Part shown: positions 10,356-37,766 of the stretch, piece by piece
Position numbering within the stretch: position 1 is the first letter of the stretch
How the letters are laid out: each line of letters begins with the position of its first letter
Source of the DNA: Limnochordia bacterium
GTDB taxonomy: Bacteria > Bacillota > Limnochordia > Darwinibacteriales > DTU012
Assembly: GCA_007116145.1 (NCBI GenBank)
Contig: SKJB01000060.1
Span: forward strand, 1 to 62,483
Direction: 5' to 3'
Length of the DNA stretch: 62,483 nt
The notes under the pieces: generated by a model
The model's database searches: none
The model's input: the letters and a program-made list of their open reading frames with translations, nothing else
Told to the model about the DNA's origin: nothing
Translations under genes and position numbers: made by a program

Positions 10356-13300
10356 ATGTTGAGAAATATTCCATTATATGAGATATATTCACTTGTATTT
10401 GTTGCTGTTGCTGCAATATACACAATAATTGGCACCTGCGTATTCTCCCTTAATACGAAAAGTGTTTTGCATAAGACTTTCTTTTTTGTTAATCTATCAT
10501 TGGGAATTTGGGCTTTTTCCTATAGTATATTAAATTCTGCTGCTACTTATGAAGAAGCTCTTCTATGGAGCAGGGTTAGTGTTTTGGGATGGGGGATAGT
10601 GTATAGTTTTTTATTGCATTATTGCTTAGTGTTAACAGACAAAAAAGAATTTTTGAAGAAAAAATGGGCGTTTGTACTTATTTACTTTCCAGCATGTATT
10701 AATGTTTTTGTTTTTGGATTCAATGCTTCTACTGCGCACTCAGCATTTGAATTACTAAAAACGAATGCAGGATGGGTCAATATATCTGAAAATGGATTTT
10801 TTGATTATTACTTTTATGTTTATTATCTTGTGTATTCATTTGCAGGGTTACTATGTTTATGGACTTGGAAAAAGGCTTTTCAAGACAAAAAAGCTAGAAG
10901 GACAGCAATAGTAGTCAGCCTTTCTTTTTCTATTGGAATTCTTTTGGGTGGTCTTAGAGATGTTCTTTTTAGATTGTCAATGCAAGATGCAATACCTCAA
11001 TTGGGTGTTGTATTTGTGTTAATCCCTATCTTGTCAGTCATGTATTCCATAATGAAGCATGGCATAATGGAAGAAAGAATTCAAGAAGTCGAGTTTTCGT
11101 CAGGAAGGGTGCTTTCACAGGAAAAACGGCTAGCATTTTATAAATTGCTATTCATTATTGCTATTATTGGCAGTATATCGCATTTGACTATTAATTACTT
11201 CATTTTTGAGAGCGAAATCACAGGGTTGTTAAAAAGTTGTGGATTTATTCATTTTCTCGGTCTTATTGTATGGATTTTACCACATTTGAAAATGAAACAA
11301 GATACTCAAGATACATTTTTGGGACTAATACTAGCCTCGATAATGCCAGCGCTTTACGTATATTATGTTCAATATGGCTATAATAGTGTCATTTGGTCTA
11401 TTCCATTATTCTTAATGATCTTAACGGTTATATTTAAGAGCAAAAAACTGTTACTTTCAGTGTTTATGTCAGCCATGATTGTTGAGTTCTTAAGTGCGGT
11501 AGGGAACCGATCTTTTTTAGCAACAATAGAAGAAGTCGATTATCAGCAACGTTTAGCGATGTACATTCTGCTCGCTGCGATCATATACTATATCAGTCAT
11601 CTTTATCGACAAAGACTCGATGATTATGAAAAGCAAACAGCACTACAGAAAAAAATATCAGAAATATCATCAGAGTTTGTTAGTGTGACGATTAATAATT
11701 TAGACGATATCATTAATGACATGCTCAAAAATAGTGGGGAATACTTTGAGGTGGATAGAGCATACATGTTTCGCTATTCTGAGGATATGGCTATGGCAGA
11801 GTATACAAATGAGTGGTGTGGTCAGGGTATTTCTCCAGCAATTGATATTGTCGGTTCGCAACCATTATCATTATTCCCTTGGTGGATGAAAGAGCTTAAG
11901 CAAGAGAGTAAGGTTTATATAGAGGACGTGAACAGTCTTCCTGGTGAAGCATCAGCAGAACGTGAATTCTTGATGCTACAGAAAGTGCAGTCTTTACTCG
12001 CAGTACCAGTATTTAATCATAATAAATTACTTGGTTTTTTAGGGTATGATGCTGTTTCGCATAAAAGAACTTGGTCTCTTGAACATATAGATGCACTACA
12101 AATTATGGCAAATATAGTATCGGATGCCATGGTAAAGGTAGAGTCTGAGAAGAAAATTGAGTATTTAGCATACTATGATGCATTAACAGGTCTTGCAAAT
12201 CGTACTTATTTTAATCTGCAATTAGATGCAATGATAGAGCTTGCCAAAGACAAAGAAGAATATATTGGCATTTTATTTTTAGATCTGGATGAATTTAAGT
12301 CCATCAATGATACCATGGGACATGATTCAGGAGATAAGCTGCTTATTGAAGTGGCAAAAAGACTTTCTCAAAGTGTTAGACATTCCGATGAAGTATGCAG
12401 ATTTGGGGGAGATGAGTTTCTTGTGATGATACCTCAAATCGATGACCTTGCTCAAATTAAACGAACAACAGAAAGAATAATGGAGGCCTTTGAGAAACCA
12501 ATTATAATTAAAGAGCAAGATTTTTATGTGACAGCTAGCTGCGGAGTAGCAGTTTATCCGTTGGATGGCCTTGATTCAGAAACCCTGATTAAAAGTGCCG
12601 ATTTAGCCATGTATGAATCGAAAGAAAGTGGTAAGAACAGATTTACATTTTGTACGCCAGTCATGAAAGATGCAGTTAATGAAAAGATGCAACTTTCCAA
12701 TGATTTATATACGGCCTTAGAACGTGAAGAATTAGTGTTATATTATCAACCACAAGTTAATATTAAGTCTGGTAAAATCATCGGACTAGAAGCCTTGATT
12801 CGCTGGAATCATCCAGATCGAGGGATTATTTCACCAGGTATATTTATTCCATTAGCAGAGCAAACCGGTTTAATCCACAAAATAGGGGAATGGGTTGTGA
12901 AGACAGCTTGTACCCAAAACAAGGCTTGGCAATTCAAAGGATTCTCACCTGTGGTTATGGCTGTTAATCTCTCTGTTGAACAATTCAGAGGTAATAGATT
13001 AGTGGAAGTTGTATCAAAAGCGCTAATAGAGAGCAAGTTAGAGTCAAAATACTTAGAACTAGAAATAACAGAAAGTATAGCTATTAAAGAACCGACATAC
13101 ATCATTGGGGTATTACACAAGCTCAAGGCGCTTGGGGTCTCAATCTCAATTGATGACTTCGGTACAGAATACTCTTCACTAAGTCGGTTAAAGGATCTCC
13201 CTATAGATAGGTTGAAGATGGCAATGGAATTTGTCCAAGGAATCGAAAAAGGAGCAAAGGATGAAGCAATTGCAGTAGTAATCATTAATCTTGCCAAAAG

Positions 13301-13469
13301 CCTCGGCTTGAAGGTTATAGCCGAGGGTGTGGAGGATGAAGGACAGTTAACATTCCTAAAAGAACGAGTTTGTGACGAAGTCCAGGGGTTCTATTTTTTC
13401 CGCCCAATGCCAGCTAAAGACATCGAGCAAATACTGCAAGTAGGTGAGAATTATGGCTATACAAGCTGA
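10356..13469 (+). CDS. Membrane 7TM-GAF-GGDEF-EAL receptor, copy 1
   Basis: About 1037 residues from ATG 10356, which follows a GGGAG; longer starts at 10272 and 10317 are possible. The N-terminal 230 residues form about seven membrane helices resembling the histidine-kinase 7TM sensor, then four or five more helices (250-410), a short coiled coil and a GAF domain (440-590). The GGDEF domain is intact ('FGGDEF') and carries an RxxD inhibitory site (R-H-S-D) five residues before it. The EAL domain has all key positions: EAL, 'NLSVEQF', 'EITES', 'DDFG', LK, 'AEGVE' and 'VQGFYF'. It is therefore potentially bifunctional in cyclic-di-GMP synthesis and breakdown under control of an external or membrane signal. 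The stop overlaps the start of the next, closely related gene by 17 bases, giving one transcript. Confidence 0.92.
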   Translation: MLRNIPLYEIYSLVFVAVAAIYTIIGTCVFSLNTKSVLHKTFFFVNLSLGIWAFSYSILNSAATYEEALLWSRVSVLGWGIVYSFLLHYCLVLTDKKEFLKKKWAFVLIYFPACINVFVFGFNASTAHSAFELLKTNAGWVNISENGFFDYYFYVYYLVYSFAGLLCLWTWKKAFQDKKARRTAIVVSLSFSIGILLGGLRDVLFRLSMQDAIPQLGVVFVLIPILSVMYSIMKHGIMEERIQEVEFSSGRVLSQEKRLAFYKLLFIIAIIGSISHLTINYFIFESEITGLLKSCGFIHFLGLIVWILPHLKMKQDTQDTFLGLILASIMPALYVYYVQYGYNSVIWSIPLFLMILTVIFKSKKLLLSVFMSAMIVEFLSAVGNRSFLATIEEVDYQQRLAMYILLAAIIYYISHLYRQRLDDYEKQTALQKKISEISSEFVSVTINNLDDIINDMLKNSGEYFEVDRAYMFRYSEDMAMAEYTNEWCGQGISPAIDIVGSQPLSLFPWWMKELKQESKVYIEDVNSLPGEASAEREFLMLQKVQSLLAVPVFNHNKLLGFLGYDAVSHKRTWSLEHIDALQIMANIVSDAMVKVESEKKIEYLAYYDALTGLANRTYFNLQLDAMIELAKDKEEYIGILFLDLDEFKSINDTMGHDSGDKLLIEVAKRLSQSVRHSDEVCRFGGDEFLVMIPQIDDLAQIKRTTERIMEAFEKPIIIKEQDFYVTASCGVAVYPLDGLDSETLIKSADLAMYESKESGKNRFTFCTPVMKDAVNEKMQLSNDLYTALEREELVLYYQPQVNIKSGKIIGLEALIRWNHPDRGIISPGIFIPLAEQTGLIHKIGEWVVKTACTQNKAWQFKGFSPVVMAVNLSVEQFRGNRLVEVVSKALIESKLESKYLELEITESIAIKEPTYIIGVLHKLKALGVSISIDDFGTEYSSLSRLKDLPIDRLKMAMEFVQGIEKGAKDEAIAVVIINLAKSLGLKVIAEGVEDEGQLTFLKERVCDEVQGFYFFRPMPAKDIEQILQVGENYGYTS

Positions 13470-16400
13470 TCTATTTTCCATACTCTACTTTCTGGTGTTA
13501 ACTGTATATGGGATGATTGGAACGTATGCGCTTTCATTGAATCCAAAAGCTAGCTTAAATCGTGTTTTCTTTTTGATATGCCTCTCTCTCTGTATATGGG
13601 CCTTTTCTTTTTCGATAGGGAATGTAGCCATTTATTATGAAACAGCTCTTCTTTGGCGACGTATCGCTTCTTTTGGATGGGGAATTCTATATAGCTTGTT
13701 AGTACATTTTTTCTTGTTGCTAACAGATGCAACTACTTTTCTCAAGCTTAGGGTAACATTTATACTTATCTATTTGCCAGCAGTGTTGAATCTGATATTT
13801 TATGGGATTTATGGTCCTGTTGCAATTTTGCAGTATAGTTTAATGCAGATAGAAAGTGGCTGGATTAATACTTCTGTCGGTGGTTTCGGCGATTTATTCT
13901 TCAATACCTATTATACACTATTTTCGTTTGTGGGATTAATCGTACTATGGAGTTGGAAAGGCTTATCCAAGGATGCAACCAAAAAAAAGACAGCGATTAT
14001 TGTCAGCACAACGTTTTTTATAGGATTTATTTCGGGTACATCAACGGATATGTTCATTAATCAGTATTTAGATTTTTACACACCGCAATTAGGAGTTGTT
14101 TTTGCCATAATACCAATATTAGGGATTTTTTATTCAATACAGAGACATGGTCTAATGCTCAATCGTGAAATAAGCAATGTCAATGAAAAGGAAATCCTTA
14201 GCCTTAATCATAGAATGAAAATCTATGATTATTTAACAATTGCAATTATTTGCGGTAGTGTCTTGAATATCGGTCATTACTTTTACTATACTGTAGACAT
14301 TGCGTCGGTTTTGTTAACGAGTACAATTTTTATGTTCATGGGGCTCATTACGAAAATGATTAGCCTAACTTCGTTTTCGAAATATAAACAAGATATGATG
14401 CTGTTTGTAACATTATCTATTTTGACGTTTATGCTTTTATGGCGATTTTTATTTGAAGATGGTAGTAATATTGTATGGACTATTCCAATTATTTTTTTGT
14501 TAGTAACAGCAGTTTTTCGAGACAGAAAGTTCTTTTTCTATATGTTATTCGTTACTTTACTATTTCATTTATGGTCATGGATAAAAGTCCCCGTAGTCGA
14601 AGTGACTGTTAACAACATCAACTATCTATCACATATGACACTTTACATGCTAGTCGCAGTGTTAGTATTTTACATCAACCAGACATATTTTCAAAGGCTA
14701 GATGATCATGAAAAACAAACCGAATTACAAAAAAAAATATCAGAAATCTCGTCGGCTTTTGTCAGTGTCACTATTGATAATTTAGACGACAAAATTAGTG
14801 ATATGCTCAAAAAAAGTGGCGAATACTTTGAGGTGGATAGAGCATACATGTTTCGGTTTTCTGAGGATATGTCTATGGCTGAGTGTACAAATGAATGGTG
14901 GAATGAAAGTAGTTGTCTAACGATTAATACGATTGGGTCTCAGCCTACAGCATCTTTCCCCTGGTGGATGAAAGAGCTTGAACAAAATAGAAAGGTTTAT
15001 ATAGAATGTGTAGAGCATCTTCCTAATGAAGCATCAGCTGATCGTGAATTTTTGATGCGACAGGGAGTAAAGTCTTTGATCTCAGCACCAGTATTTAAGC
15101 AGAGCAGATTAATCGGTTTTTTAGGTTATGATGCTGTTAGAGATAAAACTTGGTCTTTTGAACAGCAAGAAGCACTTCAAATCATGATAAATATTGTATC
15201 GGATGCCCTGGTAAAGGTAGAGACAGAGAAAGAAATAAACTTTATGGCATACTACGATGCATTAACAGGTCTTTTGAATCGTACCTATTTCAATTTGCAG
15301 TTAAACAAGAAAATTGAACGGGCAAGGCGCAAAAAGAAGTTTATTGGCATTCTATTTTTAGACTTAGATGAGTTTAAGTCCATCAATGATACCATGGGCC
15401 ATGATTCAGGTGATAAACTGCTTATTGAAGTGGCCAAAAGACTTTCTCAAAGTGTAAGAAAAGCAGATAAAGTGTGCAGATTTGGGGGAGATGAGTTTCT
15501 TGTGATGCTCTCCTCGATGGACGACCCTGCTCATATACAAATAGCAACGAGAAAAATAATGGAAGCATTTGACAAACCAATAAAGATCAAAGAGCAAGAC
15601 TTTTATGTGACAGCTAGCTGTGGGGTGGCCATATATCCGTTAGACGGCCTTGACGCAGAAACTCTGATTAAAAGCGCCGATTTAGCTATGTATGAATCAA
15701 AAGAAAGTGGTAAAAACAGATATGCATTTTGCACACCACTTATGAAAGAAGCAGTTAACGAAAAAATGCAGCTTTCCAATGATCTGTATACGGCCTTAGA
15801 ACGCGAAGAATTAGTGTTATATTATCAACCACAAGTTCATATTGAGACTGGTAACATCATCGGACTAGAAGCCTTGATTCGCTGGAATCATCCAGATAGA
15901 GGGATAATTTCTCCAGGCATATTTATTCCATTAGCAGAGCAAACTGGTTTAATCCACAAAATAGGGGAATGGGTTGTGAAGACAGCTTGTATCCAAAATA
16001 AGGTTTGGCAATCCAAAGGATTCTCACCTGTGGTTATGGCTGTTAACCTTTCTGTTGAACAATTTAGAGGCAATAAATTAGTGGAAGTTGTATCAAATGC
16101 ATTAACAGAAAGCAAGCTAGAGTCAAAATACTTAGAACTAGAAATAACAGAAAGTATAGCTATTAAAGAACCGACGTACATCATTGGGATATTGCACAAG
16201 CTCAAGGCGCTCGGGGTATCAATCTCAATCGATGACTTCGGTATAGAATACTCATCACTAAGTCGATTAAAGGAGCTGCCTATAGATAGGTTAAAGATGG
16301 CAATGGAATTTGTCCAAGGAATTGAAAACGGAGCAAAGGATGAAGCAATTGCAGTAGTAATCATTAATCTTGCGAAAAGCCTAGGCTTGAAGGTTATAGC

Positions 16401-31724: not shown

Positions 31725-32089
31725 GTAATGTTAAGTATGTTTTAAGGTTACCACCATATGTTATGTAAGTCAATAATTAATATTAATTTCCAAATAATTT
31801 AATGTGGTAGCAGAGTGATACAGTTCTGTACCACAATCATTTAAACCTGATAACATGAATTCTCTGCCTACTCTGCGGTAAAGTCCTGAGCAATAATTGT
31901 TATTATTGACAGTGGAGAATATTGCTGTTGCTATTCCTGATTTATTAGCAGGAAATTGGGGAAGGGAGTAGAAAACTACAAAGCAAAGCATATAAATCAT
32001 AGAGAATGAGTTTATCATTCGATACATTTTTAGTGTTGAATACTGCGCTCTCTCAGAGCGAAATATTCAGTAACGAAGGAAAGTGATTG

Positions 32090-33154
32090 ATGATGAGTTT
32101 GCTCAACCAAGAGTACACGTCAAGACAGAGAGATTTAGCGCAAACTATTTTTGAACGTTATATGAGCGCCGATCCGCTGCTTTCTTCAGAATATAGCCAA
32201 TATCGCCAGCGCACTATGTTGCGCGATATTCTTTATAATCTAGAGTGTTTGGATGTGGCAGTTCGGCATGATACTGAAGAGATTTTTCTTGATTATGTCC
32301 TATGGATGTATAATCTTCTTGTCACTAGAATGACGGATACCTCCCCCGAGCGTATCAAACAACAGTTGATCCAACATTATCAGACCATGATTGAGGTTCT
32401 GGCGGAGGATGTTTCCGAGAGTGCTAACCAGAGACGTATTATTTTAGAAAAGGCAATATCGCTCACGAAACAAGGGCAAGTGCCAGGAACACCTTCTAGA
32501 AGGTTTGAGAAGGGCAAATATGCACCACTTCGACAGGCTTATCTCCAAAATTTGCTAGCTGGTGATCGTAAGAGTGCAAGCAAGGAGATTATGGACGCTA
32601 TCGAAGCGGGAGTGCCGCTTAAGGATATTTACATAGAGGTATTTCAAGAAGTGATGTGGGAAGTGGGCAATCTCTGGCATCGAAACAAACTGACTGTAGA
32701 TAAGGAGCACCTTTGTACAGCGATCACCCAAGGGGTGATGGCTCAGCTGTATTCCCGGATATTTTCGACGCCACGGAATGGTCGGAGGATTGTCGCTTGT
32801 TGTGTAGGCAGTGAATTACATGAAATGGGAGTGCGTACAGTCTGTGACCTGTTTGAACTAAATGGTTGGGATAGTGTTTATTTAGGAGCTGCTGTTCCAA
32901 CTGATGGTGTACTACACGCTGTAGAAGAACACAAACCAGATGTGGTAGCGCTCTCTGTGACCATGATTTCCTATATTGACAACTGTGCAGAGATCATCGA
33001 GACCATTCGCAGGCACAGCAATCTTCAAGCTACGCGAATTGCAGTGGGGGGGCGAGCTTTTCAGATTGCCTCAAGCTTACCGAAGAAATGGGGTGTGATC
33101 ACAGCGACCAATGGAGCTGATTTTGTGGACTGGGCTGTGAGGTTCTTTGGATGA
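32090..33154 (+). CDS. Cobalamin-binding protein with a W-x9-EH photoreceptor-type motif
   Basis: 354 residues. About 140 N-terminal residues are all-helical and unrecognised, with no helix-turn-helix. Then comes a B12-binding helical bundle (145-225) and a Rossmann-type B12 domain (232-354). The bundle carries W196, E206 and H207 in exact W-x9-EH spacing, the hallmark of CarH/AerR/LitR-type B12 light sensors. The lower cobalt ligand would be H244 in 'ELHEMG' (E-x-H-x-x-G). Corrinoid methyltransferase partners share the second motif but usually not the first. ATG 32090 lies 9 bases after AAGGA; TTG 32087 is possible. The phosphatase gene starts 34 bases later. A light or B12 sensor acting through protein partners, like AerR, is inferred. 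Confidence 0.88.
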   Translation: MMSLLNQEYTSRQRDLAQTIFERYMSADPLLSSEYSQYRQRTMLRDILYNLECLDVAVRHDTEEIFLDYVLWMYNLLVTRMTDTSPERIKQQLIQHYQTMIEVLAEDVSESANQRRIILEKAISLTKQGQVPGTPSRRFEKGKYAPLRQAYLQNLLAGDRKSASKEIMDAIEAGVPLKDIYIEVFQEVMWEVGNLWHRNKLTVDKEHLCTAITQGVMAQLYSRIFSTPRNGRRIVACCVGSELHEMGVRTVCDLFELNGWDSVYLGAAVPTDGVLHAVEEHKPDVVALSVTMISYIDNCAEIIETIRRHSNLQATRIAVGGRAFQIASSLPKKWGVITATNGADFVDWAVRFFG

Positions 33155-33188
33155 TTGCGATAGAACAAGGTGTTGAGGAGGTGGAGAA

Positions 33189-34937
33189 TTGGAGTTTATT
33201 ACAGCGGTAGATTCAAATGGTATGATCACTGAAGTAAAGTGGTGTAACCCTCCAGACAGGCTTTATAGTGGACAATCAGTGCTGGATATCTTTTCGCGGG
33301 AGAGCGCGGTCTACATTATGGCAATGCTGCGCAATGCGAGCGGCGAAGTGGACTATGCCAATAAGCAACTTCAACTTGCGGTGGACAATCATCCCGTAAC
33401 TGTACACGCATTGACGGTAGGGTGTCAACTGGTTCTATTTGGCTTCGCTAACGAAGATAGTGTGGAGGAACTAGTAAGAATCTATAACGAGTTCATGAAT
33501 GAGTTGCGGGTAGAGTTTAAACGGGTTATTCAAGAACGTGAACATTCTGTTCAAGCGCAGTTTGAACAGATTCAAGGACTAAACAATGAACTAACCAATA
33601 GTCAACGGGCTCTTGAGAAGGCGAATAGCAAGCTTAACCAGATGAACACGGAGCTTCGACGCCAATTTGCTTTGGAGAAACGATTGTCGGAGATTTCTGC
33701 AGATTTCGCCCGTTGTGAGTATAGTACTCGTGAAGGCGCTATTCAGCGGGCATTAGCGAGCTGGGGACAGTTTCTGGATGTAGATCGCGTGTATATCTAC
33801 CAGTTTCACGATACCCAAGACGAGCTACACAATAAGTATCTTTGGTGTGCAAAAAAAAGCACACCATTACCGGATAAACGACGGACTATTTCCTGTGATC
33901 ATACCTGGTGGTTGCCGAAAATTCAAGAAGGCAAGCCAATATCTCTCTCTGGTTTAGACAGTTGCGGAGTCGAATCGATGCTCATCCAACCTCTAGTAGA
34001 AGATAATGTCTCCGTAGGCTTTATCGGAATGGATTGCACGGAAACGAAGCGCGATTGGACGGCTAGCGAGATCTCGTATTCAAAGATTCTTGCAGACGTG
34101 ATCGGAAATGCAATGGGCAAACAAAAAGTGGAAGAGCAGCTTATAGAGAATGTAGAAGCCCTAAATTCTGTCTATGAAAAACTAGACGAGGAGTTTCATA
34201 GGGCAAGAAAAGTGCATGAAAGAACCATGCCGCACTCATATCCTGATGTAGGGAATATCTGTATGTATCCATATTATGCGCCAGCTGCTAAGATAGGTGG
34301 CGATTTCTATAACGTAGTCCAAGTAGGAAATCGTCTTTTGATATACCTATCTGATGTGACAGGGCATGGACTTGAAGGAGCACTTTTTAGTGTGTTTGTA
34401 AAAGAAGCCATTGCGAGCTATGTGTCCCTACGGCCTGATGCCCTCAGTCCCCGAGAAATTCTTACACACTTAGATACGCAGTATCGCCAAGAGAACTATC
34501 CAGCGGATTATTTCGTTTCTATTTTTCTAGGAGTACTTGAGTTAGATACCCTAGAATTTACGTATTCGGGGGCAGGATTTCAGGACACCCCTTTTGTTGC
34601 CTATCCTGATGGAAAACGCAAGAAACTTCAAGTAGAAGGACTACCAATCACTTCGGTGGTGTCTCCTGCATTGATGAATTTTTCCGAACAGAGAATAACG
34701 CTAAAGGAAGGGACGACAGTATTATTCAACACGGATGGCCTTACAGAACAGACAATTCAAGGGGTTGCTTACTATTCGAGGCTAGACCAAGTATTTTATA
34801 AGCATAGCCACCTTCCCTGTGAAACCATTGGATTACTTATAAGCCAAGACTTTCAAGAGTTTAACGGCGGAAATTTACAGGGAGCGGACGATGTAACCTT
34901 CTTGGTGATGAAAATTCAAACTGGCTTCAACAAGTAA
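33189..34937 (+). CDS. PAS/GAF-containing PP2C (SpoIIE/RsbU-type) serine phosphatase
   Basis: 582 residues. TTG 33189 is the start: a long AGGAGGTGG (33177-33185) sits directly before it. Residues 1-95 resemble a PAS fold, 100-165 are a coiled coil, 170-310 a GAF domain, 310-345 a second helix, and 350-578 the phosphatase. Metal ligands are the aspartates in 'GGDFYNVV', 'LSDVTGHGLEG', 'NTDGLTEQ' and 'GADDVTFLV'. Such enzymes dephosphorylate STAS anti-anti-sigma proteins in partner-switching circuits; no STAS gene is in the window. The GAF domain resembles those of the two GGDEF-EAL receptors (shared V-D-R-x-Y, W-W and G-F-x-G-x-D positions). It follows the B12 protein and precedes another phosphatase on one transcript. 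Confidence 0.9.
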   Translation: MEFITAVDSNGMITEVKWCNPPDRLYSGQSVLDIFSRESAVYIMAMLRNASGEVDYANKQLQLAVDNHPVTVHALTVGCQLVLFGFANEDSVEELVRIYNEFMNELRVEFKRVIQEREHSVQAQFEQIQGLNNELTNSQRALEKANSKLNQMNTELRRQFALEKRLSEISADFARCEYSTREGAIQRALASWGQFLDVDRVYIYQFHDTQDELHNKYLWCAKKSTPLPDKRRTISCDHTWWLPKIQEGKPISLSGLDSCGVESMLIQPLVEDNVSVGFIGMDCTETKRDWTASEISYSKILADVIGNAMGKQKVEEQLIENVEALNSVYEKLDEEFHRARKVHERTMPHSYPDVGNICMYPYYAPAAKIGGDFYNVVQVGNRLLIYLSDVTGHGLEGALFSVFVKEAIASYVSLRPDALSPREILTHLDTQYRQENYPADYFVSIFLGVLELDTLEFTYSGAGFQDTPFVAYPDGKRKKLQVEGLPITSVVSPALMNFSEQRITLKEGTTVLFNTDGLTEQTIQGVAYYSRLDQVFYKHSHLPCETIGLLISQDFQEFNGGNLQGADDVTFLVMKIQTGFNK

Positions 34938-34960
34938 TAGTTAGAAGAAGGAGGGGAATT

Positions 34961-37609
34961 GTGGGTGTGGATACATATCGTTCTGTCCTTGAAAAACTAC
35001 CCGATGGATTTGCCCGCTACCAAGCTATAGATGGGGATTACATTTATCTTGCTATGAATCCAGCATACGAAGAAATGACAGGTCTTGCTAGAGAGAGGGT
35101 TATCGGCAGGAAAGTTAGCGAGCTTGCTGATGTCATTGATCATTCGGGTTTTGACTGGACAGCTATTTTGGAGCAGGCCACTCTTGCCGAAAACGGAGCT
35201 TTCTTTGGGCAGTATTGTGAACACGTGGATCGCTACTGCGAGATCACGGCATATAGTGATGAGCCTGGGTTTGTGAACGTACTTATTCGCACGAAGAATA
35301 CCTATGCATCGCTATTTGAAACAGCACCTTATATCATTCTACTGCTAAACAGCGATGCCTGTATTCAAGACATAAATCAAGCGGGTTTGGAATTCTTGCG
35401 TACTAGCAAGGAGAAGGTATTGGGTCAGACTTGTGGTCAGCTTTTTTCCTGCGTTCATGCAGAAACAGGGTTGGGATGTGGTAAAACATCGTTTTGTCCC
35501 CGCTGCCCCATTCGCAGTAGTATTACACAGACGGTACAAACTGGTCAGTCTGTTAGAAACAAAGAAGGAAGCTTGACTTTTCGTATTAGTGGTACATGCC
35601 ATTCTCGTTATTTGCTGATTTCTACCGCTTTGGAACAGGTACGCGGTGAGGAACTGGTCTTTCTAACCCTTGTCGATATCACTGATCGTAAACACGCAGA
35701 AAGAAAATTGCAAGAGAGTGAAGCTAGATATCGTTCGATTGTAGAACATACTAACGATGCGCTCTACATCCATGATTTCCAAGGGAAAATACTCGATGTC
35801 AACGATAATGCTTGCGAAGTATCTGGTTATGCACGCCATGAGTTACTAGCCATGAATCTGTCTGGGTTAAACAGTGCAGCAGAACAACAGGACATGCCTG
35901 AACGGATGCACACACTTATTACAAGGGGAAGTGTTCGTTTCGAAGGAGAGTTTCTGCGTAAAGATGGAAGCATGATCCGAGGCGATGTTAGTGTCAGAGT
36001 GGTTTCACACGAAGGAAATGGGATTGTTCAGAGTTTTGTTCGGGATTTAACGGAGCGCAGAAAGGACGAAGAGTCGCTGCAGCGTTTTCGTATTGCACTA
36101 GATAGTAGTCCAGACTGTGTATTTATTATCAACCGTGAGACAATGCAGTTTGTTGACTCCAATTCCACTGCGTGCCGGGAGCTAGGATATGACCTTTCTG
36201 AGCTACTCTCCATGGGTCCCCACGACATCAAGCCAGACTACACCCGAGATCAACTGGTCGCTCTATTTGACAGTGTTCTAGAGGAACCAGTTAACTGTGG
36301 GCGGATTGAAACCATTCACAGGCGCAAAAACGGGAGTACCTTCCCCGTCGAGATTTTCTTACAAGGCTTTCGATCAAACGAAGGTCCGATGCTAATCGCT
36401 AGTGCACGAGATATCTCAAAACGCAAGCAAGCAGATGAGAAGCTGCTAGAATACACTAAGGAGCTTGAACTACGCAACAGAGCGATAGATGTTCTCTACC
36501 AGACACTGAATGCAGAAATGGAAGGGGCTCGCAAAGCGCATCGTCGCCTCTTACAAGAAAACCTACCTGTAGTAGAGGGTATGGAACTTGCAGTGCATAA
36601 CGCACCCGCTACATTCATAGGTGGAGACTTCTCGCAGGTGGTGAGAAAAGGCGATACACTGATCGTCTATCTATCCGATGTTACCGGTCATGGATTAGCG
36701 GGAACCATCTTTAGTCTTTTTGTGAAAAATACCATTGAGTCCTATGTAGAATTGATGCCAGAATCAGCACTACAACCCGACAGAATATTAACATATTTAG
36801 AGAGACAAGTTCGTAAAGGAGGTTACCCTAGCGAGTACGCAGTGGCGATCTTCTTGATGCGTGTGGATCTTGGAACCGAACGGGCTACTTTCTCAGCCGC
36901 TGGATTTCAGAACCCCCCAGTATTGGTAAAGGAAGATGGTAGCGTCGAGTTGCTCATCAGCCAAGGATTACCGATTTCCCCAGACATACCATCAGAGCTG
37001 ATGGTATTTACCAACCACACGCTCTCTTTACCTAAGAATGCGTATCTGTTTATGGCCACAGATGGACTCTACGAACAAAGTGCCGGCACAGGGATCTATG
37101 AACGGCGACTTCTATCGCTATTACAGCAACACAGTTGCTTTCCTGCGGATACAGTCTTAGACTTGGTGCTCAGTGATTTCCATGAGTTCTTAGGTGATAA
37201 AGGACAATCGGATGATGTCACTGCGATCGTCTTGTCCACTGGAGACCAAGCAGAATATAACTTACCCTCAACGGCAGCTTTATTGCATAGGGTGAACGAG
37301 CTGGTTCTAACGTACTTCATAGACAACAAAGACGTCGAGATCATCGCCATGGCTGTCCACGAATTAGTGTCTAATGCTCTTGAACACGGGAATCGATTTG
37401 ATGCGAACAAGTCTGTAAGAGTATGTCTAGCGCCGCAGGCTGTTATTGTCGAAGATGAGGGTAAGGGGTTTAACTGGCGAGCAACTCGCTGTGCGACACT
37501 TGATCTTGATGGCGACTCTGACCGGGGGCGCGGTTTGCCAATGATCCGAGAGCTAGTCGGCGAGCTTGTATACAACCAAAAGGGCAATCGAGTGAGTCTG
37601 CTTCTATAG
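34961..37609 (+). CDS. Multi-PAS PP2C phosphatase fused to an RsbW-like ATPase domain
   Basis: 882 residues; GTG 34961 follows AGGAGGGG. Four PAS-type domains occupy about 1-500. The second holds a cysteine cluster C-x8-C-x5-C-x2-C (about residues 163-185) that could bind a metal or Fe-S centre. A helix leads into the PP2C domain (520-755; 'GGDFSQVV', 'LSDVTGHGLAG', 'ATDGLYEQ', 'QSDDVTAIV'). The last 115 residues are a HATPase_c domain of the RsbW/SpoIIAB class: N-box 'HELVSNALEHGN', then 'EDEGKGF' and 'DRGRGLPMI'. Having phosphatase and kinase-type halves in one chain suggests both directions of STAS phosphorylation are controlled here, or that the ATPase end binds a sigma factor. Last gene of the B12 operon. 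Confidence 0.9.
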   Translation: MGVDTYRSVLEKLPDGFARYQAIDGDYIYLAMNPAYEEMTGLARERVIGRKVSELADVIDHSGFDWTAILEQATLAENGAFFGQYCEHVDRYCEITAYSDEPGFVNVLIRTKNTYASLFETAPYIILLLNSDACIQDINQAGLEFLRTSKEKVLGQTCGQLFSCVHAETGLGCGKTSFCPRCPIRSSITQTVQTGQSVRNKEGSLTFRISGTCHSRYLLISTALEQVRGEELVFLTLVDITDRKHAERKLQESEARYRSIVEHTNDALYIHDFQGKILDVNDNACEVSGYARHELLAMNLSGLNSAAEQQDMPERMHTLITRGSVRFEGEFLRKDGSMIRGDVSVRVVSHEGNGIVQSFVRDLTERRKDEESLQRFRIALDSSPDCVFIINRETMQFVDSNSTACRELGYDLSELLSMGPHDIKPDYTRDQLVALFDSVLEEPVNCGRIETIHRRKNGSTFPVEIFLQGFRSNEGPMLIASARDISKRKQADEKLLEYTKELELRNRAIDVLYQTLNAEMEGARKAHRRLLQENLPVVEGMELAVHNAPATFIGGDFSQVVRKGDTLIVYLSDVTGHGLAGTIFSLFVKNTIESYVELMPESALQPDRILTYLERQVRKGGYPSEYAVAIFLMRVDLGTERATFSAAGFQNPPVLVKEDGSVELLISQGLPISPDIPSELMVFTNHTLSLPKNAYLFMATDGLYEQSAGTGIYERRLLSLLQQHSCFPADTVLDLVLSDFHEFLGDKGQSDDVTAIVLSTGDQAEYNLPSTAALLHRVNELVLTYFIDNKDVEIIAMAVHELVSNALEHGNRFDANKSVRVCLAPQAVIVEDEGKGFNWRATRCATLDLDGDSDRGRGLPMIRELVGELVYNQKGNRVSLLL

Positions 37610-37714: not shown

Positions 37715-37766
37715 AAAGAACGATATAAGCCAGCGATCCGATGCTAGGATCGCTTCCGTTCTTTTA
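37715..37766 (+). terminator. Two-stem terminator after the phosphatase operon
   Basis: An inner 8-bp stem (37732-37739 with 37747-37754) and an outer 8-bp stem (37715-37722 with 37757-37764) enclosing an asymmetric bulge. The 3' side is CTTTT-rich. Confidence 0.6.

Follow-up and report, generated by a model that had tools for sequence, protein, structure and literature searches.

Within a 62,483-nucleotide contig of a Limnochordia bacterium (SKJB01000060.1, assembly GCA_007116145.1; hereafter the window), three adjacent genes, all on the forward strand, encode a predicted cobalamin-binding sensor (gene 1) followed by two proteins with SpoIIE-type PP2C phosphatase domains (genes 2 and 3). We propose, with a probability of about 0.62, that the locus encodes a signalling pair of the photocobilin type whose output is unusual, the sensor acting in trans on the product of gene 2. 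This proposal is built from sequence comparison and structure models, namely the domain identities, the conserved residues of the cobalamin and bilin sites, the conservation of the gene pair and the swapping of outputs among its relatives; the inferred parts are cofactor binding, the light trigger, docking on a helix, the STAS target and the role of gene 3. The features of the locus that had been listed in an earlier sequence-only reading are borne out, save for the label "unknown" that it gave to the helical domain of gene 1. Of its interpretation, a CarH-type B12 sensor that is free of a DNA-binding domain and works with a neighbouring gene survives; the unknown domain does not, and SpoIIE proves to be the exception among outputs.

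The open reading frame (ORF) listing of the window places the genes at 32087/32093-33154, 33189-34937 and 34961-37609. Gene 1, a photocobilin-type sensor composed of a photoglobin and a B12 part, is open from a TTG at 32087, from which its residues are numbered here, and is preceded by a ribosome-binding-site-like sequence (GAAGGAAAG); because homologues begin with MSLL, the likely start is the ATG at 32093. Its cobalamin part consists of a four-helix cap (Pfam B12-binding_2, PF02607, E 7.2e-14, residues 149-221; 32531..32749) bearing W197-x9-E207-H208, followed by a B12-binding Rossmann domain (PF02310, E 6.5e-18, residues 234-330; 32786..33076) bearing E243-L-H245-E-M-G248, with His245 as the predicted cobalt ligand. 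Both motifs, W-x9-EH and E-x-H-x-x-G, had thus been read correctly from the DNA, the earlier numbering (W196, E206, H207) being counted from 32090, and none of the six residues W197, E207, H208, E243, H245 and G248 varies among 34 homologues. The first motif, at residues 197-208, marks B12 photoreceptors, in which it clamps the adenosyl group (PMC11796333, PMC10979010; the latter writes it as W-(10)x-EH). It is found in 55 of 58 B12-sensor ORFs and in only 3 of the 2658 other ORFs of the same loci, two of these three being truncated sensors, and its occurrence is thus more than chance; it is absent from two other B12-domain proteins of the same genome. The claim that gene 1 has no DNA-binding domain also stands, since neither Pfam nor NCBIfam detects a helix-turn-helix (HTH) in it and the CarH model reaches 47 bits against a cut-off of 400. 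Among solved structures the B12 part is closest to photocobilins (8j2w, E 1.5e-24, versus 8.6e-5 for CarH), and the best relatives of the Rossmann domain in the PDB are 8j2w, 8j2x and 8jbs.

The N-terminal domain of gene 1 had been called an unknown helical domain of 140 residues, and with the single sequence neither Pfam nor NCBIfam names it. Profile searches do: it is a photoglobin, a phycobiliprotein-like globin of six helices (residues 12-129; 32120..32473). Among 177,635 PDB sequences, the three best matches of a profile made from this domain in the close family only (A6) are the photocobilins 8j2y, 8j2w and 8j2x, in one shared register (E 0.003-0.15). The wider profile A5, to which split homologues were added, matches the beta subunit of allophycocyanin (8ddy, E 3.8e-7) and about 25 further phycobiliproteins, and three family members reach the Pfam Phycobilisome family directly, the best at 2.1e-7. 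Residues 36-85 of gene 1 pair weakly with chain positions 253-302 of 8j2w, inside its bilin-binding globin. In the register obtained, D47 (32225..32227) is aligned with Asp270 of the photocobilin SasPcob and with the D of the CxRD motif of phycobiliproteins, and W73 (32303..32305) with SasPcob Trp296, which lies beside the D ring of the bilin; the numbering of the SasPcob paper equals chain position + 6, and both residues are key bilin contacts there, Asp270 being the key biliverdin ligand (PMC10979010). In the homologue alignment W73 never varies, and 29 of 34 rows retain D47. A structure model of the sensor is all-helical at its N-terminus with middling confidence (predicted local distance difference test, pLDDT, 71.8; two sequences), and the photoglobin assignment rests on the profiles and the residue register because Foldseek, given this model, aligned mainly the B12 part. 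With a photoglobin and a CarH-type B12 domain in one protein, gene 1 is, as judged from its sequence, of photocobilin architecture with the globin at the N-terminus; both orders of the two parts occur among photocobilins (PMC10979010).

Gene 2 encodes the putative partner, with a PAS-like domain, a helix, a GAF domain and a SpoIIE-type PP2C phosphatase. Profiles of its N-terminal module found neither PpsR nor any believable match among PDB sequences (the top ones were DcrB and coiled coils), so a structure model was needed. The AlphaFold2 model is confident (pLDDT 92.4) and predicts a PAS-like fold (residues 2-86; 33192..33446) followed by a long helix (residues 92-174; 33462..33710) that bears LNNELTNSQRALEKAN and that we put forward as the docking helix. 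By this model and by Foldseek, the order of PAS-like fold and long helix is that of PpsR/CrtJ, the top matches being the N-Q-PAS1 part of PpsR (4l9g) and the AppA-PpsR complex (4hh3; E 4.6e-4 to 1e-3), and three members of the partner-module family give a weak Pfam match to PAS. The module is followed by the GAF domain (PF01590, E 6.8e-5; 33732..34115) and by the PP2C domain (34329..34916), whose conserved motifs are intact.

Evidence that genes 1 and 2 belong together comes from other genomes. A scan of genome contigs with a single sequence found no homologue, and a scan of viral contigs found no relative of the sensor; the contig scan with a four-sequence alignment yielded 57 loci. In nearly all complete loci that could be judged, the sensor gene is followed by a gene with a start like that of gene 2, often with a 4-bp overlap. 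When 398 genomes of the phylum were searched with the partner module alone, making no use of the sensor, the module was found in nine genomes (the window included, and one other copy being decayed) and the sensor lay directly upstream in 9/9. This independent search supports, at the level of gene order, the earlier claim that gene 1 works with its neighbour. The pair is found in several phyla, among clostridia, spirochaetes, fusobacteria, Izimaplasma, Synergistaceae and others. Across loci the partner helix carries LNNELxNxxRxLxKxN, and the pattern N-x4-N-x2-R-x5-[NS]-x2-L occurs in 42/49 partner ORFs against 9/2662 others; the first count is partly circular, as the motif lies within the profile, while the nine others, kinases beside the same B12 genes that the profile had overlooked, are free of this circularity. 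In genomes of the Desulfotignum type the photoglobin and the B12 protein are encoded by two neighbouring genes, and the partner gene comes next; in these split photocobilins (L060-L067 and L053) the photoglobin is about 160 residues long and Asn replaces the bilin Asp.

What varies among the partners is the output. GGDEF alone is attached in 33 loci, GGDEF-EAL in 7 and a histidine kinase in about 10 (one of them a hybrid kinase), and some loci carry cyclase and kinase partners in tandem; among the loci found, the GAF-SpoIIE output occurs in the window only. On sequence grounds the partner is thus defined by the PAS-helix module, with diguanylate cyclase as the common output and SpoIIE as the exception. 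In the sensor tree the window groups with two members that have GGDEF-EAL partners, L010 from the same order and L034 (support 93/90, below the stringent mark), and GGDEF-EAL partners also occur in two genomes of the same order (G012 and G016). When the same 398 genomes were searched with the whole of gene 2, the matches outside this genome were to the SpoIIE part only, and that part shares 41% identity with a GAF-SpoIIE-HATPase protein encoded in the same genome as gene 2. The simplest reading is that output domains were recently exchanged in this lineage.

In the mechanism that we propose, His245, Trp197 and Glu207-His208 would hold adenosylcobalamin in the product of gene 1, which may also take up a bilin close to Asp47/Trp73. 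When the adenosyl group is lost, for which green light is the likeliest cause, the sensor would change its shape and then dock in trans on the PAS-like domain and long helix at the N-terminus of gene 2, twisting or releasing the coiled coil of gene 2 and thereby switching the attached enzyme. In most relatives that enzyme is predicted to be a diguanylate cyclase, so that the signal would enter cyclic di-GMP (c-di-GMP); in this genome, where the same receiver module is fused to GAF-SpoIIE, it would instead alter the dephosphorylation of a STAS-domain protein, and gene 3 may add phosphatase or kinase activity on the same target. Docking on the PAS-helix module is suggested by analogy, because of the likeness to PpsR/AppA and because photocobilins act in trans on a diguanylate cyclase: in the AppA-PpsR complex an AerR-like SCHIC domain binds the long helix that follows the N-terminal PAS domain (PMC9144470), and a photocobilin supplied in trans alters the activity of a separate diguanylate cyclase (PMC10979010). 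As to cofactor supply, the genome encodes a corrinoid adenosyltransferase of the BtuR/CobA type, and no PduO-type adenosyltransferase was found in it.

Several observations weigh against this reading. The likeness to PpsR seen by Foldseek is moderate (E 4.6e-4, TM 0.41, 12% identity) and could come from no more than the geometry of a PAS domain plus a helix in the model. The CxRD motif of phycobiliproteins reads MLRD in gene 1, so that the cysteine that attaches the bilin is missing, as it is likewise from photocobilins. No PF01126 heme oxygenase was found in the 96.6%-complete genome, and a source of biliverdin is therefore not evident. In gut relatives (Blautia L046, Clostridium sp., Anaerovorax) the B12 site and the partner are retained and D47 has been lost; light is unlikely in the gut habitat of these members, of which L046, L047 and L052 form one clade in the sensor tree. 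The SpoIIE version is known from one locus of one draft genome, the operon holds no STAS gene, and none of about 50 other loci has a counterpart of gene 3.

This last point bears on the alternative that competes best with the full circuit, namely that genes 1 and 2 are the unit and gene 3 either adjoins it without belonging to it or joined it recently in this lineage, bringing PAS inputs of its own, a four-Cys PAS insert among them, so that no joint partner-switching cascade exists; we put this somewhat below even odds. Gene 3 encodes PAS repeats, a SpoIIE-type PP2C domain (36650..37237) and an RsbW-like kinase domain (Pfam HATPase_c_2, with N, G1 and G2 boxes; 37271..37600), and the earlier description of genes 2 and 3 as SpoIIE-type phosphatases, one with a kinase-like ATPase end, agrees with the Pfam matches, which give SpoIIE in both and HATPase_c_2 in gene 3. 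The sequence-only reading had suggested a search for other genomes with the gene trio, and this gave a divided answer: the sensor/gene-2 pair is widespread, but gene 3 stays without a counterpart. The genome also has close paralogues of its PP2C-HATPase end at another site, within a chemotaxis-type cluster, which likewise favours separation. On the other side, the gap between genes 2 and 3 is just 23 bp (34 bp between genes 1 and 2), a ribosome-binding-site-like sequence precedes gene 3, and both genes carry PP2C domains of the same type, each keeping the Asp motifs GGD, SDVTGHG, TDG and DDVT. Gene 3 is probably co-transcribed with genes 1 and 2, and it is only by the 23-bp gap that it can be tied to the circuit.

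A second alternative keeps the same sensor and partner and changes the cue, which would be the level of adenosylcobalamin or redox/oxygen conditions acting on the state of the Co-C bond, such that the holo or apo, or base-on or base-off, state sets the partner. W-x9-EH and the His ligand persist in anaerobic and gut members, a heme oxygenase of the PF01126 family was not found in this genome, as said above, and cyclase activity is reported to be lower for the AdoCbl-bound (adenosylcobalamin-bound) protein than for the apo-protein even in the dark (PMC10979010). Opposed to this are the motif itself, as a signature of B12 photoreceptors, the conserved bilin-site residues D47 and W73, which suggest photosensory use in most members, and the many matches from metagenome-assembled genomes of sediment or water, where light may reach. 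Light is a plausible signal of gene 1, and cobalamin or redox sensing is a real rival to it, which we hold to be the less likely. The weakest alternative, that gene 1 is the corrinoid protein of a methyltransferase system placed before signalling genes by chance, is very improbable: it can point to the top-scoring NCBIfam models, which are corrinoid methyltransferase proteins far below their cut-offs (best of MtaC/MtbC/MtgC, 50 bits versus 215, an identity that we rejected), and to a corrinoid protein and UroD/MtaA-like methyltransferase that precede a SpoIIE-HATPase gene elsewhere in this genome, but gene 1 has a photoglobin domain and W-x9-EH, which that other corrinoid protein lacks, and the pairing with methyltransferases named earlier as grounds for refutation is rejected on neighbourhood data, as no methyltransferase lies in the operon and all homologues are paired with signalling enzymes.

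Four known systems come closest to the locus. The photocobilins SasPcob and AbPcob/AbDPcob (8J2W, 8J2X, 8J2Y; PMC10979010) share with gene 1 a B12 domain with W-x9-EH and E/D-x-H and a photoglobin with the key bilin Asp/Trp, although AbPcob has His at the Asp position where gene 1 has D47; AbDPcob controls a diguanylate cyclase, and stand-alone photocobilins alter cyclase activity in trans (PMC10979010). In the solved photocobilins the photoglobin is C-terminal, whereas in gene 1 it is N-terminal, and the predicted effector is here a separate gene, known from its sequence, with a dedicated PAS-helix receiver and a SpoIIE output. CarH and CarH-like MerR regulators (5C8D, 8JBS) have the same cobalamin domain and motif; gene 1, lacking their HTH, would act on a signalling enzyme and not on DNA. 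The AerR-CrtJ and AppA-PpsR systems of purple bacteria (4HH3; PMC9144470) appear analogous in that a B12-fold protein acts in trans on a partner with an N-terminal PAS domain and a long helix, but the partner here is an enzyme and not a DNA-binding repressor, there is no detectable sequence homology to PpsR, and AppA, unlike gene 1, uses a flavin BLUF domain. Partner-switching systems of the RsbU/RsbP/SpoIIE type are resembled in the PP2C motifs, in the RsbW-like ATPase of gene 3 and in the STAS proteins that the genome encodes at other sites, namely a dacF-spoIIAA-spoIIAB-sigF-like operon and a chemotaxis-type cluster, with the difference that the operon contains neither a STAS gene nor a sigma factor. 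To our knowledge, no such system takes its input from a cobalamin protein.

The earlier expectation of a new type of circuit holds in part. Photocobilins have already been described as a B12/biliverdin photoreceptor class, and a photocobilin link to STAS/SpoIIE/PP2C proteins has been predicted in Saccharothrix (PMC10979010); light-responsive B12 domains fused to many outputs have likewise been reported (PMC11796333). What appears to be new is the pairing with the partner: the conserved trans pair with a dedicated PAS-helix receiver, the signature in the receiver helix, the split sensor and the SpoIIE output were not found in the literature examined, outside which lies the founding photoglobin paper (PMC8717448), which may contain part of them. 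Stand-alone photocobilins are said to have an unclear function (PMC10979010), and the conserved pairing would give them a concrete partner and contact site, a PAS-helix module with its own sequence signature. That the outputs are naturally swapped, SpoIIE among them, shows a portable module, a property also useful for optogenetics, and the anaerobic and gut members raise the question of what role cobalamin-based sensors play there. More broadly, and only tentatively, we suggest a transferable two-protein B12-photosensory system made up of a photocobilin, either fused or split, and a dedicated PAS-helix receiver on which it docks. The enzyme attached to the receiver would be open to free exchange (diguanylate cyclase, GGDEF-EAL, histidine kinase or, here, PP2C), and in this anaerobic bacterium with spore genes the system would link partner switching to light or to the state of cobalamin.

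Some further features of the locus and its relatives may be recorded. At residues 164-182 of gene 3 (window 35450-35506) a PAS domain has an insert with four cysteines (CVHAETGLGCGKTSFCPRC) that may be a metal or redox site. Downstream of gene 3 lies a terminator-like hairpin with an 8-bp stem and a T-rich tail (37732..37754, forward strand), which is weak evidence because the hairpin count in the region is not above chance. Two large GGDEF proteins are encoded elsewhere in the window, at 12168-15720, and c-di-GMP signalling is not missing from the genome, which has 21 GGDEF matches. Further SpoIIE/HATPase proteins occur elsewhere in the same genome, and its contigs C159, C111 and C15 seem to be parts of a single chemotaxis-type cluster that includes CheR, CheB, CheA, CheY, MCP and two STAS proteins. 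It is on C159 (L097:583-3882) that the corrinoid protein, the UroD/MtaA-like methyltransferase and the SpoIIE-HATPase mentioned above lie, a second link between a B12 protein and SpoIIE. Many sensor-cyclase pairs, though not the window operon, are followed by a third gene of about 170-180 residues, hydrophobic, with LLLFRGxTSI and no Pfam match, which is probably a multi-pass membrane protein (L031:10182-10712, L041:4426-4977, L023:10071-10607, L012:2317-2823, and in L038, L051, L054 and L019). A decayed sensor-partner pair with several stops (L011:9212-10474, the same as L071) lies on a contig that is possibly mis-binned, being placed under differing names in two collections. At L110:1-1413, an ORF resembling a group-II-intron reverse transcriptase directly precedes a truncated sensor gene, and the intron may sit inside the sensor.

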